Part shown: in pieces, positions 42,631 to 56,176 of the stretch
How positions within the stretch are numbered: the first letter of the stretch is position 1
How the letters are laid out: each line of letters opens with the position of its first letter
Source of the DNA: Streptomyces sp. NBC_01460
GTDB lineage: Bacteria; Actinomycetota; Actinomycetes; Streptomycetales; Streptomycetaceae
Length of the DNA: 64,000 bases
NCBI RefSeq assembly: GCF_036227405.1
Contig: NZ_CP109473.1
Span: forward strand, 2,976,001-3,040,000
Reading direction: 5' to 3'
Program-made: the position numbers and the translations under genes
The notes under the pieces: generated by a model
Databases searched by the model: none
What the model saw: only the letters and a program-made list of their open reading frames with translations
What the model was told of the DNA's origin: nothing

Positions 42631-42807
42631 GGCGGGGGCCCGGAGAGTGGGGGAACGCCCCCGCAACATGGGGGCCCCGGGCGGCAGGGGTCGGGCGTGC
42701 GCCCCGGAAGATGCGGGCCGCGTACCGATGTGCGCCGTTCCGCGTCGCGGCAGGATCAGCCGGTGTACGGCAGCTCGTCGCCCCTCCCCCGGCCAGGAGG
42801 CCCGCTG

Positions 42808-44691
42808 ATGCCCCCCTCCCCCGTTCGCCCCGGCTCCGCCGGCACGGTGTACTTCTCGCTGCTCGGGCCGCTCTCGGCGGTGATCGACGGCAGGCCGCTG
42901 CCGCTCGGGCCACGGAAACAGCGGCTGGTCCTGGCCACCCTGCTGTCCCGCCCCAACACCCCCGTACCGGTCGACGTGCTGACCGACGTGGTGTGGCCCG
43001 AGGGGCCGCCACGGACCGCGCGCAAGAACCTGCAGGTCTACGTCAGCGCCGCCCGCGCCCTGTTCGGGGGCGCGGACGGCGACGACCGGGACCGGGTGGT
43101 GCACGACTGCGGCGGCTACCGGCTGCGGGTGGAGGAGGGCGAGCTCGACACCCTGCGCTTCCGGACGCTGGCCCGTGCGGGCCGGGCGGCCGGGGAGCGG
43201 GGCGACCTGCGCACCGCCGCCCGGCTGCTCCGGGAGGCGCTGGACCTGTGGGGGGAGCGTCCGCCGCTGCACGACCTCCGCGACTCCGCCGGGGTCGCGG
43301 AGGAGGCCGAGCGGCTGGAGGCCCGCTGCCTCACGGTCTACGAGGACTGGGCCGAGGCCGAGATCGAGACGGGCCGTGCGGGCTCGGCGCTGGACGGGCT
43401 GCGGGACCTGGTGGAGCGTCACCCGTTCCGGGAGCGGCTCCGGGCGGCGTGGATGAACTCCCTGCACCAGACCGGGCGGCAGGCGGAGGCCCTGGCGGTG
43501 TACGACGACTACCGGCAGCTGCTCGCCCGGGAGCTGGGACTGGAGCCCAGTCCGGCGATGGCGGGCCTCTACCGGGCCATGCTCGGCGAGGGCCGGGCCT
43601 CCCGGCCCTCCGCTTCCCGGAACGCGGCGGGCGGTGTGTCGCTGCCGGCGGACAGCAGGCACTTCACGGGCCGCGAGGACGAACTGGCGCGGCTGCTCAC
43701 GGTGTCGGGCGGTGCGGACGGGTCCGTGCTGGTCGTCTCCGGCCCGGCCGGGGTGGGGAAGTCGGCGCTGGCCGTCCGGGCGGCCCACCTGCTCGCGGAC
43801 GGGTTCCCCGACGGGCGTGTCCATGTCCGGGCCCGGCGCGAGGACGGCTCGGCCCGCGCCCGGAACGACATGCTGGACGAGCTGGGGCGGCTGTGTGACG
43901 TGGGCGGCCCCGGCCGGCCGGATCCCGTGCGGGCCGAGAACGCCTGGCAGGACTGGCTGTCACGGCACCGGGCGCTGATCGTGCTGGACGACGTCGCCGA
44001 CGAGGCCTCCGTGCGCGGGCTGCTGCCCCGGTCCGGGCGGTGCTCGGTCGTGCTCACCGCCCGCGGTCAGCTGGCCGGGCTGGAGTCCGTGCACCGGACG
44101 GCCCTGGCCGCCCCCGGGGACGACGAGGCGCTGGAGCTGCTGGGGACGCTGATCGGCGAGGACCGGCTGCGGACGGACCGGCCGGCGGCGCTGCGCATCG
44201 TGCGGGCCTGCGGGGGCCTGCCGTTGGCGGTGGCGGTGGGCGGGATGCGGCTGGCGGTGCTGCGGCACCTCCCGCTGGCGGAGTACGCGGACCGGCTCGA
44301 CGACCCGACGTCGGCCCTGGACGAGCTGGTGGCCGGAGACGTGTCCGTCCGCTCCCGCCTGGCCGCGGGCTGGCGGGACCTGAGCGCGGACAACCGGGGG
44401 GCGCTGGTCCGGCTCGCGGGGGACGCGGGGGACGGTGCCTTCACCCTGGAGCGGGCGATGGCGGCGCTGGACCGCGACGAGCGGGGCACCATACGCGCGG
44501 TCGAGGCGCTCATCGATACGGGTGCGGTGACCTCACCCGCGGGTGAGGTCACCGCACACGCCGCGCTGTACGAGGTGCCGCGCCTGCTCTGTCTGTACGC
44601 CCGCGAGGCGGCGGGCCCTGGGACGACCGGAGCACGGGAAGCACCGCTCTTCTTCGGGAGCGGTGCTTCCCGGCTCATCGGCCGAGGGTGA
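42808..44691 (+). CDS. SARP family transcriptional regulator (AfsR-like, with NB-ARC domain)
   Basis: A 627-aa regulator. The OmpR-like winged helix is YFSLLGPLSAVIDGRPLPLGPRKQRLVLATLLSRPNTPVPVDVLTDVVWPEGPPRTARKNLQVYVSAAR. The bacterial transcriptional activation domain runs from about residue 95 to 250 (RHPFRERLRAAWMNSLHQTGRQAEALAVYDDYRQLL). The NB-ARC part has FTGREDELARLL, the P-loop SGPAGVGKSALAV, and LIVLDDVADEASV. It ends right after YEVPRLLCLYAREAA, without the TPR half of AfsR. ATG at 42808 has AGGAGG upstream. SARPs activate promoters through 11-bp direct repeats, of which a pair lies before lanA. The 3' end overlaps the LanKC gene by 17 bp. Confidence 0.92.
   Translation: MPPSPVRPGSAGTVYFSLLGPLSAVIDGRPLPLGPRKQRLVLATLLSRPNTPVPVDVLTDVVWPEGPPRTARKNLQVYVSAARALFGGADGDDRDRVVHDCGGYRLRVEEGELDTLRFRTLARAGRAAGERGDLRTAARLLREALDLWGERPPLHDLRDSAGVAEEAERLEARCLTVYEDWAEAEIETGRAGSALDGLRDLVERHPFRERLRAAWMNSLHQTGRQAEALAVYDDYRQLLARELGLEPSPAMAGLYRAMLGEGRASRPSASRNAAGGVSLPADSRHFTGREDELARLLTVSGGADGSVLVVSGPAGVGKSALAVRAAHLLADGFPDGRVHVRARREDGSARARNDMLDELGRLCDVGGPGRPDPVRAENAWQDWLSRHRALIVLDDVADEASVRGLLPRSGRCSVVLTARGQLAGLESVHRTALAAPGDDEALELLGTLIGEDRLRTDRPAALRIVRACGGLPLAVAVGGMRLAVLRHLPLAEYADRLDDPTSALDELVAGDVSVRSRLAAGWRDLSADNRGALVRLAGDAGDGAFTLERAMAALDRDERGTIRAVEALIDTGAVTSPAGEVTAHAALYEVPRLLCLYAREAAGPGTTGAREAPLFFGSGASRLIGRG
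44523..44556. terminator. 34-bp perfect palindrome inside the SARP 3' end
   Basis: TGCGGTGACCTCACCC and GGGTGAGGTCACCGCA flank a central GC; all 34 bases are symmetric. It lies in SARP coding sequence and 119 bp beyond the LanKC stop, so it may be a second terminator for the LanKC transcript or a protein-binding site. Confidence 0.6.
44635..44672. terminator. Terminator hairpin at the convergent SARP/LanKC junction
   Basis: CGGGAAGCACCGCTC and GAGCGGTGCTTCCCG pair perfectly over 15 bp with an 8-nt loop. It lies within the last codons of the SARP gene and begins 2 bp past the LanKC stop, so it can end the LanKC transcript. Confidence 0.8.
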
Positions 44692-47263
44692 GCAGGTCCA
44701 GCAGACCCGGGGGACGCCCACCGTCGGCCGGGCCCCGGCCCCCGGACAGGAAGTGCAGGGCGAGCAGCAGCCCCGCCGCCCCCGTGCCGAGGTCGGCGGA
44801 GAAGCGCCGCAGCGTCGCCCCCGGGACGAGCAGCCCCTCCTCGTCGGCGACGAGGTGCCAGGCGAGGTTGCGTACGGAGGCCATGACCCCGGGCCCGGTC
44901 CGGGTCACGGGGTCGAGCTGGCCCGCCGCCGCGGCGAGGCCCGCACGCCCGGTGAACAGCCCCGGTTCGCGGACGAATTCCATGGCACAGCCCTGGGCCA
45001 CACCCGGGATCAGGGCGCTCAGTGCCTCGTCCTCGTACCGGGCGGTGTACGCCTGCGCGACCAGCGCGACCCCTGAGCTGCCCTGGTCGAGATAGAGCAG
45101 ATGGCGTCGGCCGTCCTTCACCTGGAGGGAGCCGTCGTCCATGGTGACCAGGTGTCCGGCCTCCCGTCCCAGGGCGGTGCGGGCGGCCCGGCGCAGCCAT
45201 TCCTCGCCGGTCAGGGTGTGCAGTTCCAGGAGGAGGAGAGCGGCTCCGCTCAGCCCGCGCAGCAGCCCCGCCGACTCCGGCGGCTTCATGCCGTCCACGT
45301 GTTCGCCCCGCACCAGCCGGTCCAGGTCCCGGGCGGTGCGCAGGGCCCCGTCGACGAGCCGGGGGTCGGGAGCGGCGCCGTTCAGCCGGGCCATGCGGAG
45401 TGCGGCGAGCGCGGTGCCCGCGCGTCCGGTGAGCAGATCAGCCGATGCCGTCGTCGGCGCGACGGACGTCGCGCGTTCCCACACCTCCCGTCCCTGCTCG
45501 GTACGGCCCAGGAGGGAGAGCACCAACGCCGCGCCGGGCAGCCCGTCGTAGAGTCCGCCGGCCCCGGCGGGATCCCTGCGCAGCGCAGCCGCCGCGAGCC
45601 AGTCGGTCCACTCCCCGGGGACGGGGGCGCCCGTCCGGTGCAGGGCGTACAGGACACCGGCCGCGCCGTGCGCGAGATCGGTCCCGCCGGTCGCGAAGAG
45701 GCCGGGGGCGCCCGGGAAGAGGCGGTCCGCCCGTCCAGGGGTGGCTCCGGCGTGGATGCCGGCGAGGAGCCGGGCGCGTATCCCCGCCCAGTCGACCTCC
45801 GGCCCGTCGAACAGGGCGGCGACCTCGGCCTCACGCCGCCGTGAGGCGTCCAGGCCGCTCAGCAGTCCGGGCCGGCGGGGCCCCGCCCCGGCCGGCAGCC
45901 CGTACCGCCGGCGGGCCCAGCTCTCCAGGGTGAGGGCCTTCGCCCTTTCCAGTCCGGCCATCTCCATGACCGGCATCAGCATGGAGAGCCAGGTCGCCCA
46001 GAGCGCGTAGGCGTCGGCCTCCGCCCCGGGGGTGCCCTGGGGAGCCTGGAGGCCCTGGGCACCGGCCAGCGGGGTGGCCTGGTCGTCGAGGGCGGTGGCG
46101 TACTCGAAGTCGACGAGGGCGATCCGGCCGTCGGGCCGGACGATGATGTTGGAGGGGTGCAGATCGCCGAAGCGCAGCCCGCGCGCGTGGATCTCCTCCA
46201 GCGCCCGGGTGAGTTCACCGGTCACCGACTCGGTCCACGCGACGTAGGGGGCGAGTTCGTCCGCCGAGTCCGCCCCGCGTACGAGGGAGAAGCGGGCGAC
46301 GATCTCCTCCAGCAGCGTGTTGCCCTCGATGTGCTCCTCGATCAGGAAGTGGTGCTCCCACACGGTCCGCACCCCGTACACCTCGGGTACGCAGTCCAGT
46401 CCGGCCAGCGCGGTCAGCGCCCGGTGCTCGCGGTGCAGGCGGGTGACGGCGTCGTCGCCCACGCCGTCGAGGCCGCAGTGCGGCCGTGCCTCGCGCAGGA
46501 CCACGCGCCGACCGGTCCCCCGGTCCTCGGCGAGGTAGATCCCGCCGGCGTTGGAGAACTGGAGTGCCTCGGTGACCGTGTACGGGAAGGAGTCGTCGCG
46601 GGCGGCGGCGCGCGCCGCGAGGTGGGGCCGCAGGGCCTCGGGGACCTCGACCCAGGAGGGCACCCGGAACACGACACCGCGTTCGTCGGGGACCAGCTTC
46701 CCGGACGGGTCCCGCAGGGCGAGGACCCGGCGGCCCTCGGCGTCGTCGCACCAGCGGGGGACGTAGGCGCCGTAGCGCGTGTAGACCGGTGCGTCGCCGA
46801 TCCGCAGGTCGCTGAGGACGTAGGGGCCGCTGCGTCCCGCCAGGGTCCGGGACAGTTCGTCGGCCAGGGCGAGGAACACGGCCTCGTCGGGCGGGTAGGC
46901 CGCGATGAACTTGCCCGCGCCGCTGCGGTTCACGTGCTTGCCCGCCATCAGCAGCAACGCCTGCTCGCTGCGCAGGAACTTGAAGGGCACACCGTGGCGG
47001 ACGCAGATCCGGGCGGTGTCCCGCAGGGTGGCCTCGGCCTCGTCGGGGACGGTGGACACATGGATCTTCCAGCCCTGCTCGGCGGGTTCGACGTGCTCGG
47101 GCACCAGCGAGGTCCACAGGCCGACGGCCTCACGGCGCCAGCCGGCCGGAGGAGGATCGGTGTCGAGCCGGTACCGGGACTCCTCGTCGGGCAGCCGGGC
47201 CGGGGTGTCGAAGTACGTACGGTCGGCGAGGCAGTACAGCTGGGTTTCCTGGATGCCTGGCAC
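44675..47263 (-). CDS. lanKC: Class III lanthionine synthetase LanKC
   Basis: An 862-aa three-domain enzyme. The N-terminal lyase part has FKFLRSEQALLLMAGKHVNRSGAGKFIAAYP. The Ser/Thr kinase part has VVLREARPHCGL, HHFLIEEHIEGNTL, GLRFGDLHPSNIIV, and IALVDFEYA. The C-terminal LanC-like part has GTDLAHGAAGVLYALH, SADLLTGRAGTALAAL, YLDQGSSGVALVA, and GLFTGRAGLAAA. The cyclase lacks the WCxG and CHG zinc ligands, which marks class III (RamC/LabKC) rather than class IV. It phosphorylates Ser/Thr of the precursor, removes phosphate, and forms rings. GTG at 47263. It follows the MFS gene and lanA in the same direction and would process the LanA peptide. Confidence 0.93.
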   Translation of the reverse strand: MPGIQETQLYCLADRTYFDTPARLPDEESRYRLDTDPPPAGWRREAVGLWTSLVPEHVEPAEQGWKIHVSTVPDEAEATLRDTARICVRHGVPFKFLRSEQALLLMAGKHVNRSGAGKFIAAYPPDEAVFLALADELSRTLAGRSGPYVLSDLRIGDAPVYTRYGAYVPRWCDDAEGRRVLALRDPSGKLVPDERGVVFRVPSWVEVPEALRPHLAARAAARDDSFPYTVTEALQFSNAGGIYLAEDRGTGRRVVLREARPHCGLDGVGDDAVTRLHREHRALTALAGLDCVPEVYGVRTVWEHHFLIEEHIEGNTLLEEIVARFSLVRGADSADELAPYVAWTESVTGELTRALEEIHARGLRFGDLHPSNIIVRPDGRIALVDFEYATALDDQATPLAGAQGLQAPQGTPGAEADAYALWATWLSMLMPVMEMAGLERAKALTLESWARRRYGLPAGAGPRRPGLLSGLDASRRREAEVAALFDGPEVDWAGIRARLLAGIHAGATPGRADRLFPGAPGLFATGGTDLAHGAAGVLYALHRTGAPVPGEWTDWLAAAALRRDPAGAGGLYDGLPGAALVLSLLGRTEQGREVWERATSVAPTTASADLLTGRAGTALAALRMARLNGAAPDPRLVDGALRTARDLDRLVRGEHVDGMKPPESAGLLRGLSGAALLLLELHTLTGEEWLRRAARTALGREAGHLVTMDDGSLQVKDGRRHLLYLDQGSSGVALVAQAYTARYEDEALSALIPGVAQGCAMEFVREPGLFTGRAGLAAAAGQLDPVTRTGPGVMASVRNLAWHLVADEEGLLVPGATLRRFSADLGTGAAGLLLALHFLSGGRGPADGGRPPGLLDLLTLGR

Positions 47264-47330: not shown

Positions 47331-48626
47331 TCAGTCCCCCGTGGCGGCGGGTTTCGCGCCGGCCGGTGCGTGGTCCGGGCCCGCCGCGGGCCCGGCGCCG
47401 GGCTCCGGACGGTCGGTGGGCTCCGGGGACGGCTCCGTCCGCGCCGAGCGGGCGAAGGTGACCACGAGGGCGGAGACGGCCAGCACGCAGCCGGTCAGGG
47501 CGAAGGCCCAGCGGGCGCCGAAGGCGGTCAGCAGGGCTCCTCCGGCCAGCGGCCCGAACGGCTGGACCATGGAGGACAGGAAGCCCGCCGCGCTCTGCAC
47601 CCGGCCCACCCGGTCCTCCGGGGTCACGACCAGGAGCTTCGAGAGGAATCCGATGCTGGCGATCGTCGACAGGCACATGCAGAGCGCGCACAGGACTCCG
47701 GCCACCAGCGGCCGGCTGATCCAGGCCATCACCCCGGCGGCCGCCACACAGGTCCAGCAGGTGGCGACGATCAGGACCCGGGAGTACCGGGCGGGTCGGA
47801 TCCGCGGCGCGAGCAGCGCCCCGGACAGCGCCCCGGCGGAGACACAGGTGAGGACGAAGCCGCCGCCGACGCCGGACGTGCCCCCGTCGGAGAACGCGGT
47901 CAGGGCGGTGAACGTGAGTGCCCCGAACGCGAAGTTCATGCCCAGGCCGAAGACGAGGAGGACCGTACGGAGGTACGGCAGCCCCCACAGGAAGGTCAGC
48001 CCCGCCAGGAGCTCGCGCCGGCTGAACACGGCGCCCGCCTTCGACCTGGCCCGGGAGCGGGTGCGTACGAGGGCCACGCAGACCGTCGACAGGAGCAGGC
48101 CCAGCGCCTCGGCCGCGAACGGCAGGGCCGGGTGGATGCCGAACAGCGCTCCCCCGACGAGGGGCCCGACGAGCCGGGCCGTCTGGGTGCGTGCCTGGAG
48201 CCGCGCGGTGGCGGTGCCCATCTGGTCGGCCGGGACGACCGCGCGCATGAGGCCGAAGACGGCCGGCCCGTAGACGCTGCCGATCACCGCGCCCGCCGCG
48301 GCGCAGAGCAGGACGAGCGCCATGGGGACGTGTCCGGACCAGACGGCGACGGTGAGGGCGGTGACGACGATCAGGCTGCCGACGTCGCAGACCCGCATCA
48401 GCCGGCGGCGTTCGACGCGGTCCGCCATCACCCCGCCGGGCAGCATCGTGATCAGGACGGCTCCCACGGACACCGTCCCGACCGCTCCGGCCTGCACCGC
48501 CGATCCGGTCTCCTTGAGCACCAGCAGCGGAAGGGCGAGGGAACTCATCTGCCCGCCCAGGACCGCGAAGAGGCCGCTCAGCCAGAGCAGCCGGAAATCC
48601 CTGTTGCCGCGCAGCGGCGTGGTCAT
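47331..48626 (-). CDS. MFS transporter of the class III lanthipeptide cluster
   Basis: A 431-aa major facilitator with about 12 transmembrane helices. It starts with GNRDFRLLWLSGLFAVLGGQMSSLALPLLVL and has the loop motif GGVMADRVERRRLM between helices 2 and 3, the pattern of DHA3-like drug or peptide exporters. The C-terminal 45 residues are a soluble Pro/Ala/Gly-rich tail. Position between lanA and lanKC suggests export of the modified peptide or self-protection. Its start region is duplicated upstream, making a 12-codon leader frame whose stop overlaps this ATG. Confidence 0.92.
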   Translation of the reverse strand: MTTPLRGNRDFRLLWLSGLFAVLGGQMSSLALPLLVLKETGSAVQAGAVGTVSVGAVLITMLPGGVMADRVERRRLMRVCDVGSLIVVTALTVAVWSGHVPMALVLLCAAAGAVIGSVYGPAVFGLMRAVVPADQMGTATARLQARTQTARLVGPLVGGALFGIHPALPFAAEALGLLLSTVCVALVRTRSRARSKAGAVFSRRELLAGLTFLWGLPYLRTVLLVFGLGMNFAFGALTFTALTAFSDGGTSGVGGGFVLTCVSAGALSGALLAPRIRPARYSRVLIVATCWTCVAAAGVMAWISRPLVAGVLCALCMCLSTIASIGFLSKLLVVTPEDRVGRVQSAAGFLSSMVQPFGPLAGGALLTAFGARWAFALTGCVLAVSALVVTFARSARTEPSPEPTDRPEPGAGPAAGPDHAPAGAKPAATGD

Positions 48627-48835: not shown

Positions 48836-48994
48836 TCAGTCAGCGAGGACGACGCTGATCACGCTGACGCAGCTGCCGCCCGGGGCCTCGATCTCCTTGT
48901 TGGCCGTCTCCTGGAGGTCCAGCACGGAGTGCGCCTCGACCTCGGGGGTCTCGTCGTTGTTGTCGTCGGCGACGGGCTGGGTGTTCTCGGACAT
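48836..48994 (-). CDS. lanA: Class III lanthipeptide precursor peptide
   Basis: A 52-aa peptide. The acidic leader (MSENTQPVADDNNDETPEVE) continues with AHSVLDLQETANKEIEAP. The LDLQ stretch is the helix that class III LanKC enzymes recognise. After a GG comes SCVSVISVVLAD, with Ser at 41, 44 and 47 and one Cys at 42. Classical labionin or lanthionine motifs in this class have Ser before Cys (S-xx-S-xxx-C); here the Cys precedes two of the Ser. The ATG has GGACGGAGACCACC upstream. It is followed by a hairpin and then the MFS and lanKC genes. Too short to be found by ordinary gene callers with a high cutoff. Confidence 0.85.
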   Translation of the reverse strand: MSENTQPVADDNNDETPEVEAHSVLDLQETANKEIEAPGGSCVSVISVVLAD

Positions 48995-49316: not shown

Positions 49317-50402
49317 ATGGAACTCGGCGAACTCGTCGGACGGCGGCCCTTCCCCGCCGCCGGGCTGCTGCTCGGCCTCACCCGGCGCTGCCCCCTGAGC
49401 TGCGCCCACTGCTCGACCGGATCGACCCTGGGCACGCGGGAGGAGCCCGACGCCGGCCAACTGGTGAGTTTCGTCGGCTCGTTCACCCGGGCCGACCGCC
49501 CCGACGTGGTGATGCTGACCGGGGGCGAACCGCTGCTGCTGCCCGCGCTCGTCGAGGAGCTGAGCGCCCGGGCCCGCGCCGCCGGTTCGCGTACGGCGCT
49601 GCTCAGCGGCATGTTCTTCGCCCGCTCCCGGGAGATCCCGCCGCCGGTCCTGCGCGCGATCAGGGGCGTCGACCACTTCTCCGCCAGCCTCGACGCCCAC
49701 CACGAGCGGGAGATCCCCCGCGCCGACGTGTTCCGCGCCGTGCACCGGGTGCGGGAGGCGGGGGTGGCGGTGAGCTTCCACCTCACCGGGACGGGGGCGG
49801 ACGATCCCTACCTCGCGGACATCACCCGCGCCGTGGACGAGGAGTTCGGCGGCCGGGTCCCCTCACTGGTCAACGAGGTGAGGCCGTTCGGCCGGGCGGC
49901 CTCCTGGGCCGCGCCCGCCCGGACCGGCCCGGAGGCGGGCGCGGTCTCCCCGTGCGCCATGGCCGCCTGGCCGGTGGTCGCCTTCGACGGGACGGTGCTC
50001 GCCTGCTGCAACCAGGACACCGTGGACCGCCGGCCCGCCCCCGCCCACCTGCGCCTCGGGCACGTCGCCACCGACGACTGGGCGGCGGTGCGCCGCCGCG
50101 CCCTGGAGTCGCCCGTGCTGCGCATGATCCGCACGGTCGGCCCCGCCCATCTGGCCGCGCGCTCCGGTGTCCCCTCCCGGGGCGCCTCCTACTGCGAGGG
50201 CTGCCGGGCCCTGGGTTCCGACCCCGGGGTGACTGCCGAGGCGAACGCGGTGGCCGCGGGGGCCGCGGGTGCGCTGCTGGACCTGACCGCGGCCCACCGC
50301 GGGGCGGCGGAGGGGCCGGTGGGTGTCGTACGGCATCACGGCTGCGCCGCGTACGCCCCGCTGGTCACGGCCCGCGCGACCGCCGCGGGCGGTTCCCGGT
50401 GA
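49317..50402 (+). CDS. Radical SAM protein, presumed RiPP maturase
   Basis: A 361-aa radical SAM enzyme. CPLSCAHC (Cys25, Cys29, Cys32) is the CxxxCxxC motif that binds the [4Fe-4S] cluster and SAM; TGGEPLLLPAL is the SAM-binding GGE strand. C-terminal cysteines (SPCAMAAWPVVAFDGTVLACCNQ, then YCEGCRALG) form a SPASM-like auxiliary-cluster region, typical for enzymes acting on ribosomal peptides. ATG has CTGAAGGAGG upstream. It overlaps the HDO gene by GTGA and is divergent from lanA with a shared 322-bp control region. Substrate is most likely the 81-aa peptide two genes on, or, less likely, LanA. Confidence 0.85.
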   Translation: MELGELVGRRPFPAAGLLLGLTRRCPLSCAHCSTGSTLGTREEPDAGQLVSFVGSFTRADRPDVVMLTGGEPLLLPALVEELSARARAAGSRTALLSGMFFARSREIPPPVLRAIRGVDHFSASLDAHHEREIPRADVFRAVHRVREAGVAVSFHLTGTGADDPYLADITRAVDEEFGGRVPSLVNEVRPFGRAASWAAPARTGPEAGAVSPCAMAAWPVVAFDGTVLACCNQDTVDRRPAPAHLRLGHVATDDWAAVRRRALESPVLRMIRTVGPAHLAARSGVPSRGASYCEGCRALGSDPGVTAEANAVAAGAAGALLDLTAAHRGAAEGPVGVVRHHGCAAYAPLVTARATAAGGSR

Positions 50403-51133
50403 GCGCCGCCGGGCCGAGCTCCTCGGCGCGGCTGCGGGTCACCCTGGGGCTGCTGGACGCGGAACTGCTGCACGCGATGGAGCACATGTGGCGCGAGGAG
50501 GACCTCCTGCCGCGCTACCGGCGCTACCTGTGTGCGATGCACGCGGTGGTGCGGGCGTCGGTTCCGCTGATGGAGCGCGCCCTGGAGCGGTCCGTGCGGC
50601 TGGACGTCTGCGGCGATCCGCTGGCCGGCCCCCTGGCGGCGTATCTCCGCGGGCACATCCGGGAGGAGGCGGGCCACGACGTCTGGCTGCTGGAGGACAT
50701 CCGCGCGGCGGGTTCGCTGCCCGCGGACGCCCTCGCCCCGATGCCCGCGCCGGTCGTCGCCGCACTCGCCGGCTCCCAGTACTACTGGATCGAGCACCAC
50801 CACCCGGTGGCCCTGCTCGGCTACATCGCGGTGCTGGAGGGGTACGCGCCCGCCGCCGACCTGACCTCCCGCATCGCGCGCACGACCGGTCTGCCGGACA
50901 CCGCGCTGCGGACGGTGCGGGAGCACGCGGCGCTGGACACGGGCCATCTGGACGAGCTGTACGCGCTGCTGGACCGGCTGCCGCTGACCCGTGGCCAGGA
51001 GTCCGACGTGACGGTCAGCGCCCTGCACTCCCTCGACGCGCTCACCCGGCTGTTCGTCCGGCTCGGGCGCTCCGCGGCGGCGCCGCTGCCGCGGAGGGCC
51101 GGACCTCTCTCACCGACGGGAGTCACCCCATGA
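50399..51133 (+). CDS. Heme-oxygenase-like (TenA/PqqC-fold) diiron oxidase-like protein
   Basis: A 244-aa all-helical protein of the heme-oxygenase-like superfamily. Conserved-looking metal ligands are REEAGHDVWLLEDI, YYWIEHHHPVALLGYIAVLEGY and REHAALDTGHLDELYALL. The spaced E...H...D and E...H sites are of the form seen in heme-oxygenase-like diiron oxidases (HDOs), rather than of heme-binding members. GTG at 50399 overlaps the radical-SAM stop and its own stop overlaps the next ATG (ATGA), so all three are translated together. Presumed to oxidise or oxygenate the peptide; that is inference from context. Confidence 0.8.
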   Translation: MSAAGPSSSARLRVTLGLLDAELLHAMEHMWREEDLLPRYRRYLCAMHAVVRASVPLMERALERSVRLDVCGDPLAGPLAAYLRGHIREEAGHDVWLLEDIRAAGSLPADALAPMPAPVVAALAGSQYYWIEHHHPVALLGYIAVLEGYAPAADLTSRIARTTGLPDTALRTVREHAALDTGHLDELYALLDRLPLTRGQESDVTVSALHSLDALTRLFVRLGRSAAAPLPRRAGPLSPTGVTP

Positions 51134-51375
51134 CAGGACCACCCGACAGCAGCGCCTTCCCCGGGACGCCCGGGGGCGGTGAACAGCCCGCGCTGCCGGC
51201 TGCGTTGTACGAGGCCGGCCTGCCGGTGGACATGCTCACCGAGGAACAGCGCCTCGTGCTCAGCCAGCTCACGGAGGAGGAACTCGCCGTGCTGCTGGAC
51301 ATCAAGAGCCGGCTGGACGCGGTGGAACCCGAGGTCCGGGCACACGGCGAGATCGCCGGGGGCGCCCTGTTCTGA
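51130..51375 (+). CDS. 81-aa peptide, likely precursor of the radical-SAM/HDO system
   Basis: An 81-aa peptide without any Cys. A Pro/Gly-rich start leads to LPAALYEAGLPVDMLTEEQRLVL, then LTEEELAVLLDIKSRLDAV, two Leu/Glu helices that look like a recognition domain. The end is EPEVRAHGEIAGGALF with terminal Phe. I recall a family called the aroma-sacti cluster domain with this kind of LTEEQ...LTEEE pattern, but could not check it. Lack of Cys rules out thioether (sactipeptide) chemistry on this peptide itself. It overlaps the HDO gene (ATGA) and is followed by a strong terminator, as expected for the last gene of a RiPP operon. Confidence 0.75.
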   Translation: MTGPPDSSAFPGTPGGGEQPALPAALYEAGLPVDMLTEEQRLVLSQLTEEELAVLLDIKSRLDAVEPEVRAHGEIAGGALF

Positions 51376-51432
51376 GCCGCGTCCGCGGTCCGGCCGGCCC
51401 CGGGGCCGGGCCGGATCCCGCGGCCCCGGAGG

Positions 51433-51462
51433 GGGCAGGGCCGGTACGCACCGGCCCTGCCC
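51433..51462 (+). terminator. Strong hairpin after the 81-aa peptide gene
   Basis: GGGCAGGGCCGGT and ACCGGCCCTGCCC pair perfectly over 13 bp with a 4-nt loop, 57 bp past the stop. It separates the RiPP operon from the cyclase gene, and a CCCG-type simple repeat (about 51498-51531) follows. Confidence 0.8.
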
Positions 51463-51546
51463 GCCCGGCGGCGCGGCCCCGCCCCCGCATCCGGCCCGCC
51501 GACCCGCCCACCCGCCCGCCCGCCCGCCCGCAGAGAAGGGATCGTC

Positions 51547-54500
51547 ATGAACTGCCCCACGTGCCGCCAGGACCTGCCGGAGGACGCCAGGTTCTGCTCG
51601 TCCTGCGGGACGCCGTGCACCGTCGCCGCCGCACCCGGGGACGACGAACGCAAGCCGGTGACGGTGCTCTTCTGCGACCTCGTCGGCTCCACCGCCCTGT
51701 CGGGCGTCCTGGACCCCGAGACGCTGCGCGCGGTGACGCTGCGGTACTTCGAGGCGATGAGCGCACAGATCGTGGCGCGGGGCGGCACCCCGGAGAAGTT
51801 CATCGGCGACGCCGTGATGGCGGTCTTCGGTGTGCCGGTGGTCCGGGAGGACGACGCCCGGCGCGCGCTGGCCGCGGCGCTCGGCATGCGGGACGCGCTG
51901 GCCGCGCTCAACGAGGAGCTGCGCGCCACGCTCGGCATCACCCTGGCGACCCGGATCGGCGTCAACACCGGCCAGGTGGTGGCCGGTGGCGACGCGACGG
52001 CACGTCAGGCGCTGGTGTCGGGAGAGACCGTCAACATCGCCGCACGCCTGGAACAGCACGCCGGCGCCGGTGAGATCCTCCTCGGCCCCGACACCCTGCT
52101 CGCCGCAGGGCCCACGGTCTCCGCCGAACCCACCGGACCGCTCCGGCTGAAGGGCAAGCAGGACAGCGTGGAGGCCTACCGGCTGCTGGCCCTCGGCGCG
52201 GACGACCCGGCGCTGCTGCGCCGCTTCGACGTGCCCTTCGTGGGACGTCACACCGAGCAGGGCGCGCTGGACGCCGCCCTGTCGGACACGGTGAGCGAAG
52301 GGCGGGCCGGCCTGCTGCGCGTCACCGGCGAGCCCGGCATCGGCAAGACCCGGCTGGTACGGGAGTGGCTGGCACGGCGCTCCGCCTCGGGGCTCGTCTC
52401 CTACGGTGCGGGCCGGTGCCGCGGGCACGGGGACCAGGGCACGCTCACCCCCCTGGGCGACGCCCTGCGCGCCCTGCCGGACCTGGCCGTCGTCCCCGGG
52501 CCGTCGGAAGACCGCTCTCCCCGTGCCGGCACGGCGGCCGACGACGCGATGGCCCTGCTCTCCGCGGGCGTGCTGCGCGACGGGACGCCGAACGCCCCGT
52601 TCGAGGACCTGTGCGCCGCCCTGTCCACCGCGCTGGGCCGCGCCGCCAAGAGGCGGCCCTTCGTCCTCGTACTCGACGACACGCACGAGGCGGCACCCCT
52701 GCTGATGCGCACGCTGGAGCGGCTCGCGGACGGCTCCGGGCCCGCCGGTGTGCTGATCGTCTGTGTGGGCCGCCCGGACGGGACGGCCGACACCGAGGAC
52801 TGCCTCCAGCTCACGGGGCTGCCCCGCGAGGAGAGCGTCCGGCTCGCCGGCCTGCTGGCAGGGCTCGACGGTGGCGCCGGACCGGTGGACGAACGGCTCC
52901 TGTCCCGCGCGGAGGGCAACCCCCTCCATCTCGAACAGCTGCTGGTCGGCGGCGGGGCGGACCGGGTCACCGCGGGCGGAGGCGACGCCGGGCTGCCGCC
53001 GACGCTCCAGGCCCTGCTCGGCGCCCGGATCGGGGCGCTGGCGCGGACCGAGCGGACCGTGGTCGATCTCGCCGCCGTGGTCGGCCGCGAGTTCACCGCG
53101 GCGGAGCTCCTGCTGCTGGAGACGTCCGCGCGGCTGGCCGAGCGGCGGGGCCCCGCGGTGGTGGAGGTGTCCCCCGCCGAACGGGCGCACCACCTGGGGC
53201 GCATCGAGGAGGTGCTGGTGGCGCTGACCGGGCGGCGCCTGGTGGAGCCGGCTCCGGGGACGGGCCCGTCGGGCTACCGGTTCAGCAGCGGGCTGGTGCA
53301 CGAGGTGACGTACGCGTCGCTGTCCAAACGCGCCAAGGCGGACCGCCACGCCTTGGCGGCCGAACTGCCCCGGGTGCTGCGGGCCGGGGACGGCGCCGTC
53401 GGCGGTCATCTCGAACGCGCCTGCCGCTACCGGGCCGAGCTCGGGCTGCTCGACGACCGGACCGGGCAGCTGCGCGGCCGTGCGGCCGCCGCGCTGGGCC
53501 GCGCGGGGGCCCAGGCCGCGTCCCGGTCCGACCTCACCTGGGCGGACGACCTGCTGGAGCGGGCGGTCGAGCTGGATCCGGAGGACGCGGGCTCGGTCCG
53601 CAGGCTCGGTGAGGTCCGGGTGGCCCTCGGGCGGACCGCGAGCGGGGCGGGACTCCTGCGCCGGGTGCACGAGATGGACGCGGTGCCGGTGGAGTCCGCG
53701 CACGCCAGGCTCGCGCTCGCCGTGCTGGACCCCTCGGGGCCGGGCCCCGGGCTCACGGCCACGGCGCGGGCGGTGCTGCCGGTGTTCGAGGCGGCCGGGG
53801 ACGCGGTCGGCCGGGCCAGGTCCCATCTGAGGCTCGCCCAGCACCTCCAGCAGGCCGGCCGGCACGAGGAGGCGGAACGCGACCAGGCGTGCGCCCTGGA
53901 GCAGGCGGTCCTGGCAGGGGCCGAACCGGAACGGGCCGGCGCTCTCGGGGCCATCGGCATCTCGCTGTGGCGCGGTCCGGTGCCCGCCCCCGAGGCGGTG
54001 GCCCGCTGCCGTGCGCTGCTGGCCGCGCACGGCGAGGGCCGCCCGACGGTGAGGCTCACCCTCAACTGCCCTCTGGCGGTGCTGTACGCGCTCCAGGACC
54101 GGCCCCGCGAGGCGCGCGCCTGCCTCGCCGAGGCCCGGGCACTCGCCGGGAAGCTGCGGTTCGCCGAGGCCGAGGTGTTCCTGCCGGTGTTCGGGGCCGC
54201 GGTGGAGGCGTTGCTCGGAGACGGCCCGGCCGCCCTGCGGCTGCTGGTGAGGGCGGACGAGGCCGCCCGGCGCGCCGACGCGGGCGGGCTGCGGACGGCG
54301 GTCGCGCTGGACGCGGCCCGGATCGAGCTCGACGGCGGCCGGACCCGGCGGGCGGCGGCCTGGATCGCGGGTGTCGGGGAGGCGGCGGAGCTGAGCCCCG
54401 CCGACGCCGTGGACCTGAACGGGCTGCGGGGCCGGCTGGCCGCCGCCGCCGGGCGTCCGGCGGAGGCCGCCGGCCACGCGGACCGGGCCGTACGGGCGTC

Positions 54501-54708
54501 GCTGCTGACGGACTCCCCGCTGGTCCGGGCGACGGCGGAGCTGGACCGGGCCCGCACCCTGTTCGCGCTGGGGCGCCGGGCTCCCGCCCTGGCCTCGGCG
54601 CGTGCGGCACGGGAGCACTTCGTGAGCAAGGGGCACCTGCCGGGGGCCCGCCTGGCCGACGGCTGCGTGCCGGACGACGCCATGGTCACCACGACGGAGA
54701 GGAGCTGA
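51547..54708 (+). CDS. Adenylate/guanylate cyclase-AAA ATPase-TPR protein with N-terminal zinc ribbon
   Basis: A 1053-aa signalling protein. A zinc ribbon (Cys3, Cys6, Cys17, Cys20) comes first. A class III nucleotidyl cyclase domain follows: VTVLFCDLVGSTALSG and FIGDAVMAVFG give the two metal-binding Asp, EKF the base-binding Lys, and TVNIAARLEQ the transition-state Arg. Then comes an AAA/STAND ATPase with P-loop TGEPGIGKTRLV (about residue 262) and VLVLDDTHEAAPLLMRTL. The C-terminal half is TPR-like helices. By family it makes cAMP or cGMP when its ATPase/TPR part senses a signal. The S8 protease gene begins 3 bp after its stop. Confidence 0.9.
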   Translation: MNCPTCRQDLPEDARFCSSCGTPCTVAAAPGDDERKPVTVLFCDLVGSTALSGVLDPETLRAVTLRYFEAMSAQIVARGGTPEKFIGDAVMAVFGVPVVREDDARRALAAALGMRDALAALNEELRATLGITLATRIGVNTGQVVAGGDATARQALVSGETVNIAARLEQHAGAGEILLGPDTLLAAGPTVSAEPTGPLRLKGKQDSVEAYRLLALGADDPALLRRFDVPFVGRHTEQGALDAALSDTVSEGRAGLLRVTGEPGIGKTRLVREWLARRSASGLVSYGAGRCRGHGDQGTLTPLGDALRALPDLAVVPGPSEDRSPRAGTAADDAMALLSAGVLRDGTPNAPFEDLCAALSTALGRAAKRRPFVLVLDDTHEAAPLLMRTLERLADGSGPAGVLIVCVGRPDGTADTEDCLQLTGLPREESVRLAGLLAGLDGGAGPVDERLLSRAEGNPLHLEQLLVGGGADRVTAGGGDAGLPPTLQALLGARIGALARTERTVVDLAAVVGREFTAAELLLLETSARLAERRGPAVVEVSPAERAHHLGRIEEVLVALTGRRLVEPAPGTGPSGYRFSSGLVHEVTYASLSKRAKADRHALAAELPRVLRAGDGAVGGHLERACRYRAELGLLDDRTGQLRGRAAAALGRAGAQAASRSDLTWADDLLERAVELDPEDAGSVRRLGEVRVALGRTASGAGLLRRVHEMDAVPVESAHARLALAVLDPSGPGPGLTATARAVLPVFEAAGDAVGRARSHLRLAQHLQQAGRHEEAERDQACALEQAVLAGAEPERAGALGAIGISLWRGPVPAPEAVARCRALLAAHGEGRPTVRLTLNCPLAVLYALQDRPREARACLAEARALAGKLRFAEAEVFLPVFGAAVEALLGDGPAALRLLVRADEAARRADAGGLRTAVALDAARIELDGGRTRRAAAWIAGVGEAAELSPADAVDLNGLRGRLAAAAGRPAEAAGHADRAVRASLLTDSPLVRATAELDRARTLFALGRRAPALASARAAREHFVSKGHLPGARLADGCVPDDAMVTTTERS

Positions 54709-54711
54709 CCG

Positions 54712-55593
54712 ATGGGAACCGTCGGAACGGGCACGGTGCCGGGGCAGGGGCTCACCTGGAGCCTGCGGGGGCGCGGACCCGAGGACCTGCCGGTGCCCGC
54801 GGACGAGGGGCCGCCGGGCGGTCTGCCCGCGGAGCAGGCGACGGGGCGCGGCGTGCGGGTGTGCGTGGTGGATTCGGGCGTGGAGCTCGACCACCCGCTG
54901 GTGGGCCCGGTGGAGAGCTCCTGGGTCGTGGTCAAGGACCCGGAGAGCGGGACGATCACGGTCGAGCCGACGGACACCGGCGACACCTGCGGGCACGGGA
55001 CGGCCTGCGCGGGGATCATCCGCCGCACCGCCCCCGACTGCGAGATCCACAGCGTCCGGGTGCTCGGCGAGCGCTTCTCCGGCACCGGTGACGTCCTGAT
55101 GGCCGGCCTCCGGTGGGCCGTGGAACAGCGCTTCGACGTGGTGAACCTGAGCCTGTCGACCACCCGTTCCCGCTTCGCCGCCGAGCTGCACGGGCTGGCC
55201 GACCAGGCGTACTTCGGCCGTACGGTCATCGTCGCGTCGGCGCACAACACCCCGGTGGAGAGCTTTCCCTGGCGGTTCGCCTCGGTGATCTCCGTGGGCA
55301 GCCACCAGGAGGACGACACGCTCCACCTGTACAACCCGGACCCGCCGGTGGAGTTCTTCGGGCCGGGGCAGAACGTGTCCGTGCCGTGGCTGGGCGGCAC
55401 GACGATCCGCACCACCGGGAACAGCTTCGCCACCCCGTACGTCGCGGGGCTCTGTGCCCGTGTCCTCTCCGGGCATCCCAGGATGACGGCCTTTCAGCTC
55501 AAGAACGCCCTCTACCTGTCCGCGGCCAACGTGCACGCGGACCCGCGTCCCTCCACTGCGGCAGGAGATACCCGTGACGACTCCGAGAACTGA
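54712..55593 (+). CDS. S8 family serine peptidase (subtilisin-like), cytoplasmic
   Basis: A 293-aa subtilase with a complete triad: Asp54 in VCVVDSGVELDHP, His95 in CGHGTACAG, and Ser238 in GNSFATPYVAG, with Asn179 as oxyanion residue. There is no signal peptide or long propeptide, so the enzyme appears to act inside the cell. In this context it may remove the leader from one of the nearby RiPP precursors. It starts 3 bp after the cyclase gene and overlaps the GAF gene by 20 bp. Leader cleavage is inference; a regulatory protease within the cyclase pathway is an equal option. Confidence 0.88.
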   Translation: MGTVGTGTVPGQGLTWSLRGRGPEDLPVPADEGPPGGLPAEQATGRGVRVCVVDSGVELDHPLVGPVESSWVVVKDPESGTITVEPTDTGDTCGHGTACAGIIRRTAPDCEIHSVRVLGERFSGTGDVLMAGLRWAVEQRFDVVNLSLSTTRSRFAAELHGLADQAYFGRTVIVASAHNTPVESFPWRFASVISVGSHQEDDTLHLYNPDPPVEFFGPGQNVSVPWLGGTTIRTTGNSFATPYVAGLCARVLSGHPRMTAFQLKNALYLSAANVHADPRPSTAAGDTRDDSEN

Positions 55594-56176
55594 CGCCATG
55601 CTCCCTCCGGCGCCCTTCCCCGTACCCGGCCCGGGTGACGCCGCCCGGCACGAGCTGCTCCAGTCGGTCGTCGACGTGGCGCGCGCCATCTTCGGGGCCG
55701 CGGCGAGCTCCGTCTGCCTGCTGGACGAGGAGGCGGACGAGCTGGTCTTCCAGGCGGTCTCCGGGGAGGGCGAGGAGTTCCTGGTGGGGCGCCGGTTCCC
55801 CGCGGGACGGGGCATCGCGGGCTGGGTGGCGACCTCGGGTGAGCCGATGATCGTCGACGACCTGAGCCGGAACACGGCCTTCGACCGCTCCCTGGCGGAG
55901 TCCACGGAGTACGTCCCGGACGCCTTGATGGCCGCCCCGCTGATCAGCGACGCGCGCGTCCTCGGGGTGCTGGAGGTGCTGGACCCCTCCCCCCAGGCCC
56001 GGTCGGACGTCCGTGAACTGGACCTGCTGGCGATGTTCGCCCGGCAGGCGGCGGCCGCGCTGCGCGTGATCGCCGCGCAGCCGGCGGGCGGCGGGCGGGC
56101 CCTGGAGGGTGAACGGCGCGAGGACGCGTTGCAGCTGCTCGGCAGCCTGGAGCGACTCCTGCGGGGTACGGGCTGA
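55574..56176 (+). CDS. GAF domain-containing protein
   Basis: A 200-aa protein that is nearly one GAF domain: LLQSVVDVARAIFGAAASSVCLLDEEADELVFQAVSGEGEEFLVGRRFPAGRGIAGWVATSGEPMIVDDLSRNTAFDR, then the ending strand and helix (LGVLEVLD, LAMFARQAAAALRVIA). GAF domains bind cyclic nucleotides and other small molecules. Its neighbour makes a cyclic nucleotide, so it may be the receiver. There is no output domain. GTG at 55574 lies within the protease gene (20-bp overlap), so translation is coupled. Confidence 0.88.
   Translation: MTTPRTDAMLPPAPFPVPGPGDAARHELLQSVVDVARAIFGAAASSVCLLDEEADELVFQAVSGEGEEFLVGRRFPAGRGIAGWVATSGEPMIVDDLSRNTAFDRSLAESTEYVPDALMAAPLISDARVLGVLEVLDPSPQARSDVRELDLLAMFARQAAAALRVIAAQPAGGGRALEGERREDALQLLGSLERLLRGTG

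Follow-up and report, generated by a model that had tools for sequence, protein, structure and literature searches.

A radical SAM/heme-oxygenase-like diiron protein locus of Streptomyces encoding an aroma-sacti peptide whose last residue co-varies with the neighbouring maturase

We analysed a window of 64,000 nucleotides from the 8.8 Mb genome of Streptomyces sp. NBC_01460 (contig NZ_CP109473.1, positions 2,976,001 to 3,040,000). At its centre of interest, a radical S-adenosylmethionine (SAM) enzyme, a heme-oxygenase-like diiron protein (HDO), and an 81-residue peptide are encoded by three genes joined by stop-to-start overlaps, as described in the initial annotation of this DNA. Comparison with related loci shows that the last residue of the peptide co-varies with the predicted maturase encoded next door, and that the three genes are part of a larger unit with a nucleotide cyclase, a subtilase, and a GAF-domain protein. 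The features of the locus are collected in Table 1.

Table 1. Features of the locus; positions are those of the window.
Feature	Coordinates	Strand	Evidence
Radical SAM enzyme with one C-terminal auxiliary Fe-S set (twitch-like); ATG start	49317..50402	+	PF04055; conserved cysteines; nearest solved fold EpeE/YydG
Heme-oxygenase-like diiron protein (HDO); GTG start inside GTGA overlapping the radical SAM stop	50399..51133	+	PF14518; model fold; conserved ligand set
81-residue precursor-like peptide; ATG inside ATGA overlapping the HDO stop	51130..51375	+	NF045560
Proposed core AHGEIAGGALF; last Phe the proposed HDO target	51340..51372	+	Conserved ending; last residue tracks maturase
GC-rich hairpin without T run, between peptide and cyclase genes	51426..51468	+	-41.2 kcal/mol
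Protein with zinc-ribbon-like segment, class III nucleotide cyclase, AAA/STAND-like ATPase, and TPR	51547..54708	+	PF00211; PF13191
Subtilase (S8 peptidase), proposed releasing protease	54712..55593	+	PF00082
GAF-domain protein, proposed ligand sensor; gene overlaps the S8 gene	55574..56176	+	PF01590, 70 bits
SARP/BTAD-type regulator, probable pathway regulator; separated from the radical SAM gene by the lanthipeptide genes	42697..44691	+	Relatives
Class III lanthionine synthetase LanKC of the neighbouring cluster, outside the minimal unit	44675..47263	-	NF038151, 858 bits (cut-off 575)
Major facilitator superfamily (MFS) transporter of the neighbouring lanthipeptide cluster	47331..48626	-	PF07690
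Class III lanthipeptide precursor-like peptide with LDLQ leader motif	48836..48994	-	NF038159, 15.2 bits (below cut-off 30); conserved in relatives

The 81-residue peptide ends in PEVRAHGEIAGGALF, i.e. AGGALF, and contains no cysteine, which rules out sactionine or lanthionine chemistry on it, as had been argued from the first reading of the sequence. In an NCBIfam search it belongs to NF045560, the 'aroma-sacti cluster domain' (75.7 bits; cut-off 30), a family that the initial annotation had named as a possible match. The model of StsA-related sactipeptides (NF045559) gives a partial match over residues 25–73, below its cut-off (26.7 bits; cut-off 75), and the peptide differs from these sactipeptides in having no Cys, so that no thioether is expected here. 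A relation to FxsA/FxsB, prompted by the 'FXSXX-COOH' names of UniRef entries, was discarded: no FxS model is among the three NCBIfam matches of the peptide, and a literature search gave nothing relevant.

Among 36 loci with a readable peptide that were picked by the radical SAM enzyme alone, and not by the peptide ending, 35 end in AGGALF and one in AGAALF. The last eight codons occur in 25 distinct DNA versions in this set, which differ pairwise by 48, 24, and 561 changes at the first, second, and third codon position, respectively. A codon count over 155 loci that had been chosen by their ending was left aside in favour of this one. Since these DNA changes are mostly silent, the ending appears to be selected; judged from the codons, the conservation of the C-terminus exceeds chance, and the peptide is real and under selection. 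The same gene order is found in 37 loci collected by the radical SAM enzyme, wherever the contig is long enough. The C-terminus that had been singled out as the likely site of modification is thus supported by its conservation (36 of 36 AGGALF or AGAALF). A motif E-V-x-A/G-H/Q at positions 51331–51345, the proposed border between leader and core in aroma-sacti peptides, also occurs in the leaders of the neighbouring lanthipeptides (PEVEAH) and may mark a protease or recognition site common to both.

HDO matches PF14518 in a Pfam scan (42.9 bits; cut-off 28.9). Its predicted model, with a predicted local distance difference test score (pLDDT) of 88.9, matches 3dde, CADD, UndA, and HrmI and has the heme-oxygenase fold. 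E90, E147, H176, D180, and H183 are kept in 90 of 90 aligned sequences and H93 in 89 of 90, forming the six-residue 3H/3C set, which we take, by analogy, to be the metal ligands. UndA, CADD, HrmI, and AetD have the fold and this set in common with HDO, while the substrate proposed here would be the C-terminus of a ribosomal peptide. No NCBIfam model, the PqqC equivalog included, matches HDO at E up to 1.

The radical SAM enzyme is a member of its superfamily by PF04055 (51.6 bits; cut-off 29.5). The cysteines of its C25-x3-C29-x2-C32 motif are kept in 85 of 86 aligned sequences, the remaining one having a gap. Towards the C-terminus, the only conserved cysteines are C213, C230, C293, and C296, arranged as C213-x11-G-x4-C230 and C293-x2-C296, beside an extra C231 present in 80 of the 86. 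We take this arrangement to be twitch-like. A full SPASM domain with two auxiliary clusters is not detected (PF13186, 13.8 bits; cut-off 21.5), and with a single predicted auxiliary-cluster set the enzyme is better called twitch-like than SPASM; of the cysteine motifs given in the initial annotation, CxxxCxxC stands and the SPASM-like C-terminus needs this correction. By fold, the solved structure closest to the enzyme is that of the RiPP epimerase EpeE (template modelling scores 0.62/0.68; RiPP, ribosomally synthesized and post-translationally modified peptide), for a model of only moderate quality (pLDDT 70.5). In one draft contig (L018:7042-8862; L and G numbers are our own handles for loci and genomes), one continuous frame of 607 residues spans the radical SAM enzyme and HDO with no intervening stop, either a natural fusion or a base error. 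In an Actinacidiphila locus (L040:11087-11868), about 780 bases of repeat-rich DNA lie between the two genes, which overlap in the window.

A sample of 297 genomes of the family, searched for HDO at E up to 1e-10 and for the radical SAM enzyme at E up to 1e-30, holds the peptide domain in 75 genomes (73 over cut-off), the HDO subfamily in 59, and the radical SAM enzyme in 58. Both enzymes occur together in 56, and the peptide is present in all 56, so that enzyme pairs lacking the peptide, which had been named as the observation to look for against the proposed system, were not found. Peptide and HDO genes lie within about 3 kb of each other in 54 of these genomes and about 22 kb apart on the same contig in two (G451, G598). 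The radical SAM enzyme occurs without HDO only in G459 and G514, where it sits at a contig end. HDO without the radical SAM enzyme is found in three genomes (G564, G399, G424), all with weaker HDO matches; those of G399 and G424, weak and with no peptide nearby, were set aside as seemingly another HDO. The peptide domain without both enzymes occurs in 19 genomes of the family, and weak NF045560 matches below cut-off in G428 and G638 yielded no peptide.

In a sample of 396 genomes of the phylum, the HDO subfamily is present in seven, six of which have the peptide domain (E up to 0.001; four of the six over cut-off); in the seventh, the start of the peptide is partly masked but recognisable. Five distant loci encode HDO and the cyclase without a detected radical SAM enzyme, and the peptide is present in all five, partly masked in one. 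Their contig pieces, of 3.6 to 13 kb, contain no radical SAM, S8, or GAF match, an absence that is local only, and the radical SAM enzyme was dropped as an essential partner. Because peptide, HDO, and cyclase stay together in distant lineages without a detected radical SAM enzyme, subtilase, or GAF protein, HDO is, in the genomes sampled, the more constant of the two enzymes. The family match and the co-occurrence together support the assignment of the peptide as a RiPP-type precursor with the radical SAM enzyme and HDO as partners.

The relatives fall into several types of locus. Type A, with one radical SAM enzyme and HDO, has peptides ending in AGGALF or close to it. Type B has two radical SAM genes and HDO, sometimes with three tandem peptides (three in L146), and endings GGLVW, GGVVW, GGLFF, GALLW, and GAGIF. 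In the distant lineages with HDO and cyclase, peptides end in EWV, HMV, VHV, and FPV. A more divergent HDO stands beside a B12-binding radical SAM enzyme in L163, where an upstream leader-like open reading frame (ORF) ends in NNI. Type C encodes a PF02441 flavoprotein together with two radical SAM enzymes, one B12-binding and the other of a further kind, and has two peptides, which end in LKLL and in Cys, respectively; these loci (L166, L169, L171, L173, L202) are a distinct RiPP type, for which no earlier description was met, no search aimed at one having been made. Type D encodes a radical SAM enzyme, a DUF6895 protein, and usually a Streptomyces antibiotic regulatory protein (SARP), with peptides ending in IKLA and no cyclase/S8/GAF set close by. 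In type E, which has a B12-binding radical SAM enzyme, the peptide ends in RIG. Cyclase, S8 peptidase, and GAF protein are present in types C and E and in L198 (LKVL ending, no flavoprotein), the exception being L171, with only a cyclase fragment in 17 kb. The IKLA-ending loci are L167, L168, L170, L172, L174, L176, L193, L194, L210, and L223; a SARP-like regulator is present in all except the short contig L193, the SARP-related protein of L168 matches PF03704, and a weak glycosyltransferase-like N-terminal region, below cut-off, was also seen in that locus.

Endings were counted by distinct last-45 sequence, with identical endings entered once. The 105 distinct endings less a weak match (L214, 19 bits) give 104, of which 76 come from loci with HDO and radical SAM enzyme, 3 from HDO loci with no radical SAM enzyme seen, and 23 from loci without HDO, while 2 are unlinked. 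L048 (V), which ends at an apparent HDO gene start at a contig end, was left out of the 23, leaving 22. L160 (W) is one of the 3, its radical SAM gene being on another contig. The endings of L047, L059, and L163 were read from translations and not from the peptide profile, and P0096, with a different C-terminus (LTGCR), was excluded. L040 and L184 denote one and the same locus, and further loci found by the radical SAM enzyme may recur in the genome sample.

All 76 distinct peptides with HDO and radical SAM genes within 8 kb end in an aromatic residue (Phe in 70, Trp in 6), and the residues before it differ (GGALF, GAALF, GGLFF, GGLVW, GGVVW, GALLW, GAGIF, GVGIF). The two peptides about 22 kb away on HDO/radical SAM contigs likewise end in Phe. 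Val is the last residue in four HDO loci where no radical SAM enzyme was seen (L045, L046, L047, L059), and nine database relatives of the L045 peptide, compared as sequences alone, all end in Val. None of the 22 peptides without HDO ends in an aromatic or beta-branched residue (Ala 9, Leu 6, Cys 5, Gly 2). The PF02441 flavoprotein is found in exactly the five Cys-ending loci among 120 searched. EpiD-type flavoproteins of the PF02441 family decarboxylate a C-terminal Cys. This comparison of gene neighbourhoods shows co-variation of the last residue with the maturase next door. Because the sequences are related, the numbers exaggerate how independent the cases are; sorted by kind of ending, there are about eight in the presence of HDO and four in its absence.

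The initial annotation had closed the operon after the peptide with a strong terminator and described a system of three genes; neither description holds. The hairpin downstream of the peptide gene is strong, but the longest T run between this gene and the next is 1, and a canonical intrinsic terminator was rejected; no terminator-like site was found between the peptide and cyclase genes. The unit is not closed after the peptide, since the next gene, that of the cyclase, begins 0–50 bases downstream in many relatives. A run of CCCG-like repeats occupies positions 51500–51532, immediately ahead of the cyclase start.

Seventy-nine loci with radical SAM enzyme and HDO are distinct by HDO sequence, and 71 of them extend at least 6.5 kb downstream of HDO. 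All 71, among them loci of Actinacidiphila (L040), Virgisporangium (L041), and Streptomyces JJ38 (L043), carry the cyclase, subtilase, and GAF genes. These genes do not always follow the peptide, as we had considered: in L157 and L159 the subtilase and GAF genes lie upstream of the radical SAM gene, not downstream, and L171 has no more than its cyclase fragment. The cyclase protein carries PF00211 and PF13191 over cut-off, with the zinc ribbon and TPR below cut-off in Pfam. Its catalytic residues D44, D88, and R167 are kept in 83 of 86 aligned sequences (three gaps) and N163 in 79 of 83, and the Walker lysine K267 of the ATPase part is conserved. Of the subtilase triad, D54 and H95 are kept in 87 of 87 sequences and S238 in 86, the remaining one having a gap.

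The constancy of the subtilase and cyclase neighbours in the 71 loci, and the conservation of most of the peptide and not of the core alone, would also fit a small regulator whose hydrophobic tail marks it for the subtilase or the cyclase, as a degron or a docking tag. We regard this as improbable, as it accounts poorly for a leader-like sequence with interchangeable tails, for tandem copies in type B, and for last residues matched to the maturase.

The reading that we prefer, with a probability of roughly 0.4, is that HDO oxidatively decarboxylates the C-terminal residue, the radical SAM enzyme makes a second change, and the subtilase releases a product that is read by the cyclase and the GAF protein. 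The 81-residue protein would be a precursor composed of leader and core. The C-terminal carboxylate of Phe81 would bind the diiron site of HDO, like the fatty acid carboxylate in UndA; HDO would take the weak benzylic C-beta hydrogen, and loss of CO2 would give a C-terminal styryl-enamide, a change of about -46.005 Da. The radical SAM enzyme may modify the Gly-Gly-Ala-Leu stretch by epimerisation or a cross-link, its likeness to EpeE and C231 favouring epimerisation. The subtilase would remove the leader, perhaps near the conserved E-V-x-A-H. The product may act as a cofactor or an intracellular signal, which the GAF protein and the cyclase-ATPase would read.

Attack at C-beta with decarboxylation is proposed because Phe, Trp, Val, and perhaps Ile, the residues linked to HDO, each combine a benzylic or tertiary hydrogen at C-beta with the free carboxylate of a chain end. 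Once bound to a 3H/3C HDO, the substrate is a ligand of Fe1; UndA converts fatty acids to 1-alkenes and CO2, and one of the two routes proposed for this reaction involves abstraction of C3-H (PMC13108848). Decarboxylation is suggested by this ligation, by the CO2 release of UndA, and by the six-residue set kept in the HDO described here. The near-invariant core within type A argues for one fixed small product, comparable to mycofactocin or pyrroloquinoline quinone (PQQ), and not for a diversifying antibiotic.

Several points weigh against this proposal. HDOs perform many other reactions. The sequences are related, type A being one clade, so that the independent events behind the rule number perhaps six to eight and not 76. 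The Ile ending of L163 fits the rule but was read by eye, and a B12-binding radical SAM enzyme is encoded on the same contig. The role of the radical SAM enzyme and the order of the steps are tentative, its model is middling, and Pfam and NCBIfam scans gave no partner resembling a RiPP recognition element (RRE) among nine neighbour proteins, smaller ORFs being outside the scan. We infer sensing by the cyclase and GAF protein through guilt by association, and this association is not universal: the HDO loci without radical SAM enzyme have the cyclase but neither S8 nor GAF match, the IKLA type lacks all three close by, and L171 is left with a cyclase fragment; N163 of the cyclase is replaced in four type C loci.

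The same residue rule, with its weak C-beta hydrogens in Phe, Trp, and Val, would be expected if HDO oxidised C-beta of the last residue, by hydroxylation or otherwise, or the backbone, with CO2 kept and with epimerisation of a neighbouring residue by the radical SAM enzyme, which resembles EpeE and whose C231 could donate a hydrogen. Hydroxylation leaves unexplained, however, why the target is the very last residue and why a family of Cys-decarboxylase type accompanies the Cys-ending peptides, and we find this alternative rather unlikely. Decarboxylation by HDO could be extended to the whole family: the PF02441 flavoprotein of the Cys-ending type would be the flavin counterpart of HDO. In such a modular RiPP family each kind of last residue would have its own maturase: Phe, Trp, Val, and perhaps Ile would be served by HDO, Cys by a flavin decarboxylase, and the rest by other radical enzymes; the HDO and flavin types would yield a decarboxylated C-terminus, and the product would be an intracellular signal for the cyclase-ATPase/GAF/subtilase module. 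This generalisation is tentative and less probable than the main proposal.

PQQ biosynthesis also joins a radical SAM enzyme, a heme-oxygenase-fold enzyme, and a peptide. The trio of gene types is alike, but none of the nine proteins scanned here matches a PqqA, PqqC, or PqqD model, and the best PqqE score is 28.5 against an equivalog cut-off of 381. The PQQ pathway was rejected on these scores, which bear out the earlier statement that these are not PQQ genes. Mycofactocin biosynthesis resembles the present locus in a C-terminal aliphatic-aromatic pair, a fixed core, a radical SAM enzyme, and a releasing protease, and its radical SAM enzyme MftC oxidatively decarboxylates and cyclises the C-terminal Val-Tyr pair that gives mycofactocin (PMC7491314). 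Here, by contrast, HDO is present, no RRE partner is found among the nine neighbours, a subtilase stands in place of MftE, and a cyclase/GAF pair is added. Among the 25 of 35 NCBIfam matches listed, there is no MftC model.

By analogy with mycofactocin, and also with PQQ, the radical SAM enzyme could decarboxylate and cross-link the C-terminal Leu-Phe, leaving HDO to finish the cofactor after release by ring oxidation or desaturation. The hydrophobic-aromatic ends (ALF, LVW, LLW, GIF) and the fixed core of type A agree with such a route. It is nevertheless unlikely in our view: HDO stays with the peptide where no radical SAM enzyme is detected locally, the radical SAM enzyme without HDO is confined to two of 297 genomes, at contig ends, and the nine scanned neighbours include no MftB/PqqD-like protein, the fold nearest to the radical SAM enzyme being that of EpeE. 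In the RiPP pathway of thiovarsolin, the heme-oxygenase-like protein VarO is a suggested dehydrogenase; that pathway differs in its YcaO-TfuA pair and repeat precursor, and seven genes listed for it include no radical SAM enzyme or cyclase (PMC6511847).

The literature searched, mostly without subscription papers, gave no peptide-decarboxylating HDO, which is weak evidence of novelty, and did not contain the name 'aroma-sacti'. Nor did any paper in it bring together four of the following five: radical SAM, precursor peptide, adenylate cyclase, subtilisin-like, and GAF domain. The family NF045560 was already known to NCBI; the present analysis adds its link to HDO, the rule for the C-terminus, and the chassis of cyclase, S8 peptidase, and GAF protein. 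The candidate new RiPP system of the initial annotation is therefore new as a system and in its C-terminal rule only; the peptide domain had been named before.

The last residue would predict the enzyme, a testable biochemical rule for a named NCBI domain family, and a peptide substrate class is proposed for HDO enzymes. About one in five sampled genomes of the family (56 of 297 with both enzymes) appears to tie RiPP maturation to a GAF sensor, a nucleotide cyclase, and a subtilase. If the generalised reading is true, HDO would be the first such enzyme known to us to decarboxylate a peptide C-terminus, and the peptide would be a RiPP dedicated to a nucleotide-cyclase circuit. A product acting as intracellular signal or cofactor would be relevant to the coupling of peptide chemistry and physiology in Streptomyces.

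Divergently upstream of the radical SAM gene lies a class III lanthipeptide cluster of LanKC, MFS transporter, and precursor LanA. LanKC is found near 34 of the 37 loci collected by the radical SAM enzyme; none is seen in L040, while L026 and L033 are cut by the contig but retain transporter and precursor. Among distinct type A loci that extend 6.5 kb or more to each side of the radical SAM gene, LanKC (>150 bits) is present in 34 of 42. Outside the closest clade it is present in 6 of 14 (L041, L043, L150, L179, L180, L182), as quite different genes. None of the five type B loci with flanks of this length has it, nor does any of the 22 peptide loci without HDO. A link of the lanthipeptide cluster with type A is likely from these counts, and the cluster is not obligatory for the unit.

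The radical SAM enzyme and HDO might act on the neighbouring lanthipeptide, the 81-residue protein being a chaperone or regulator. LanKC at 34 of 42 type A loci speaks for this, as do its quite different genes outside the closest clade; class III synthetases over cut-off are found in 43 of 61 sampled genomes of the genus, so that nearness by chance should be rare. The absence of LanKC from 8 of the 14 loci outside the clade, from all type B loci, and from all peptide loci without HDO speaks against it, as do the overlap of the HDO and peptide genes and a C-terminal rule that concerns the peptide and not LanA, and we consider it the least probable of the alternatives. SapB-like peptides are morphogens, and a class III lanthipeptide next door makes development of interest.

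The product of the regulatory gene at 42697–44691 is, we presume from its relatives, of the SARP/BTAD class. SARP relatives lie directly upstream of the radical SAM gene in L040, L043, and L182, and somewhere in 64 of 99 loci longer than 11 kb with a peptide, flank lengths being unequal. Most closely related loci also share a large AAA/LuxR-type regulator (39595–42507), located upstream of the lanthipeptide genes. In the class III lanthipeptide precursor of the window (48836–48994) and the relatives compared (L009–L039), a single Cys precedes the Ser residues of the tail (GSCVSVISVVL, GNCISVLSVV), whereas the usual order is the reverse, Ser-xx-Ser-xxx-Cys.

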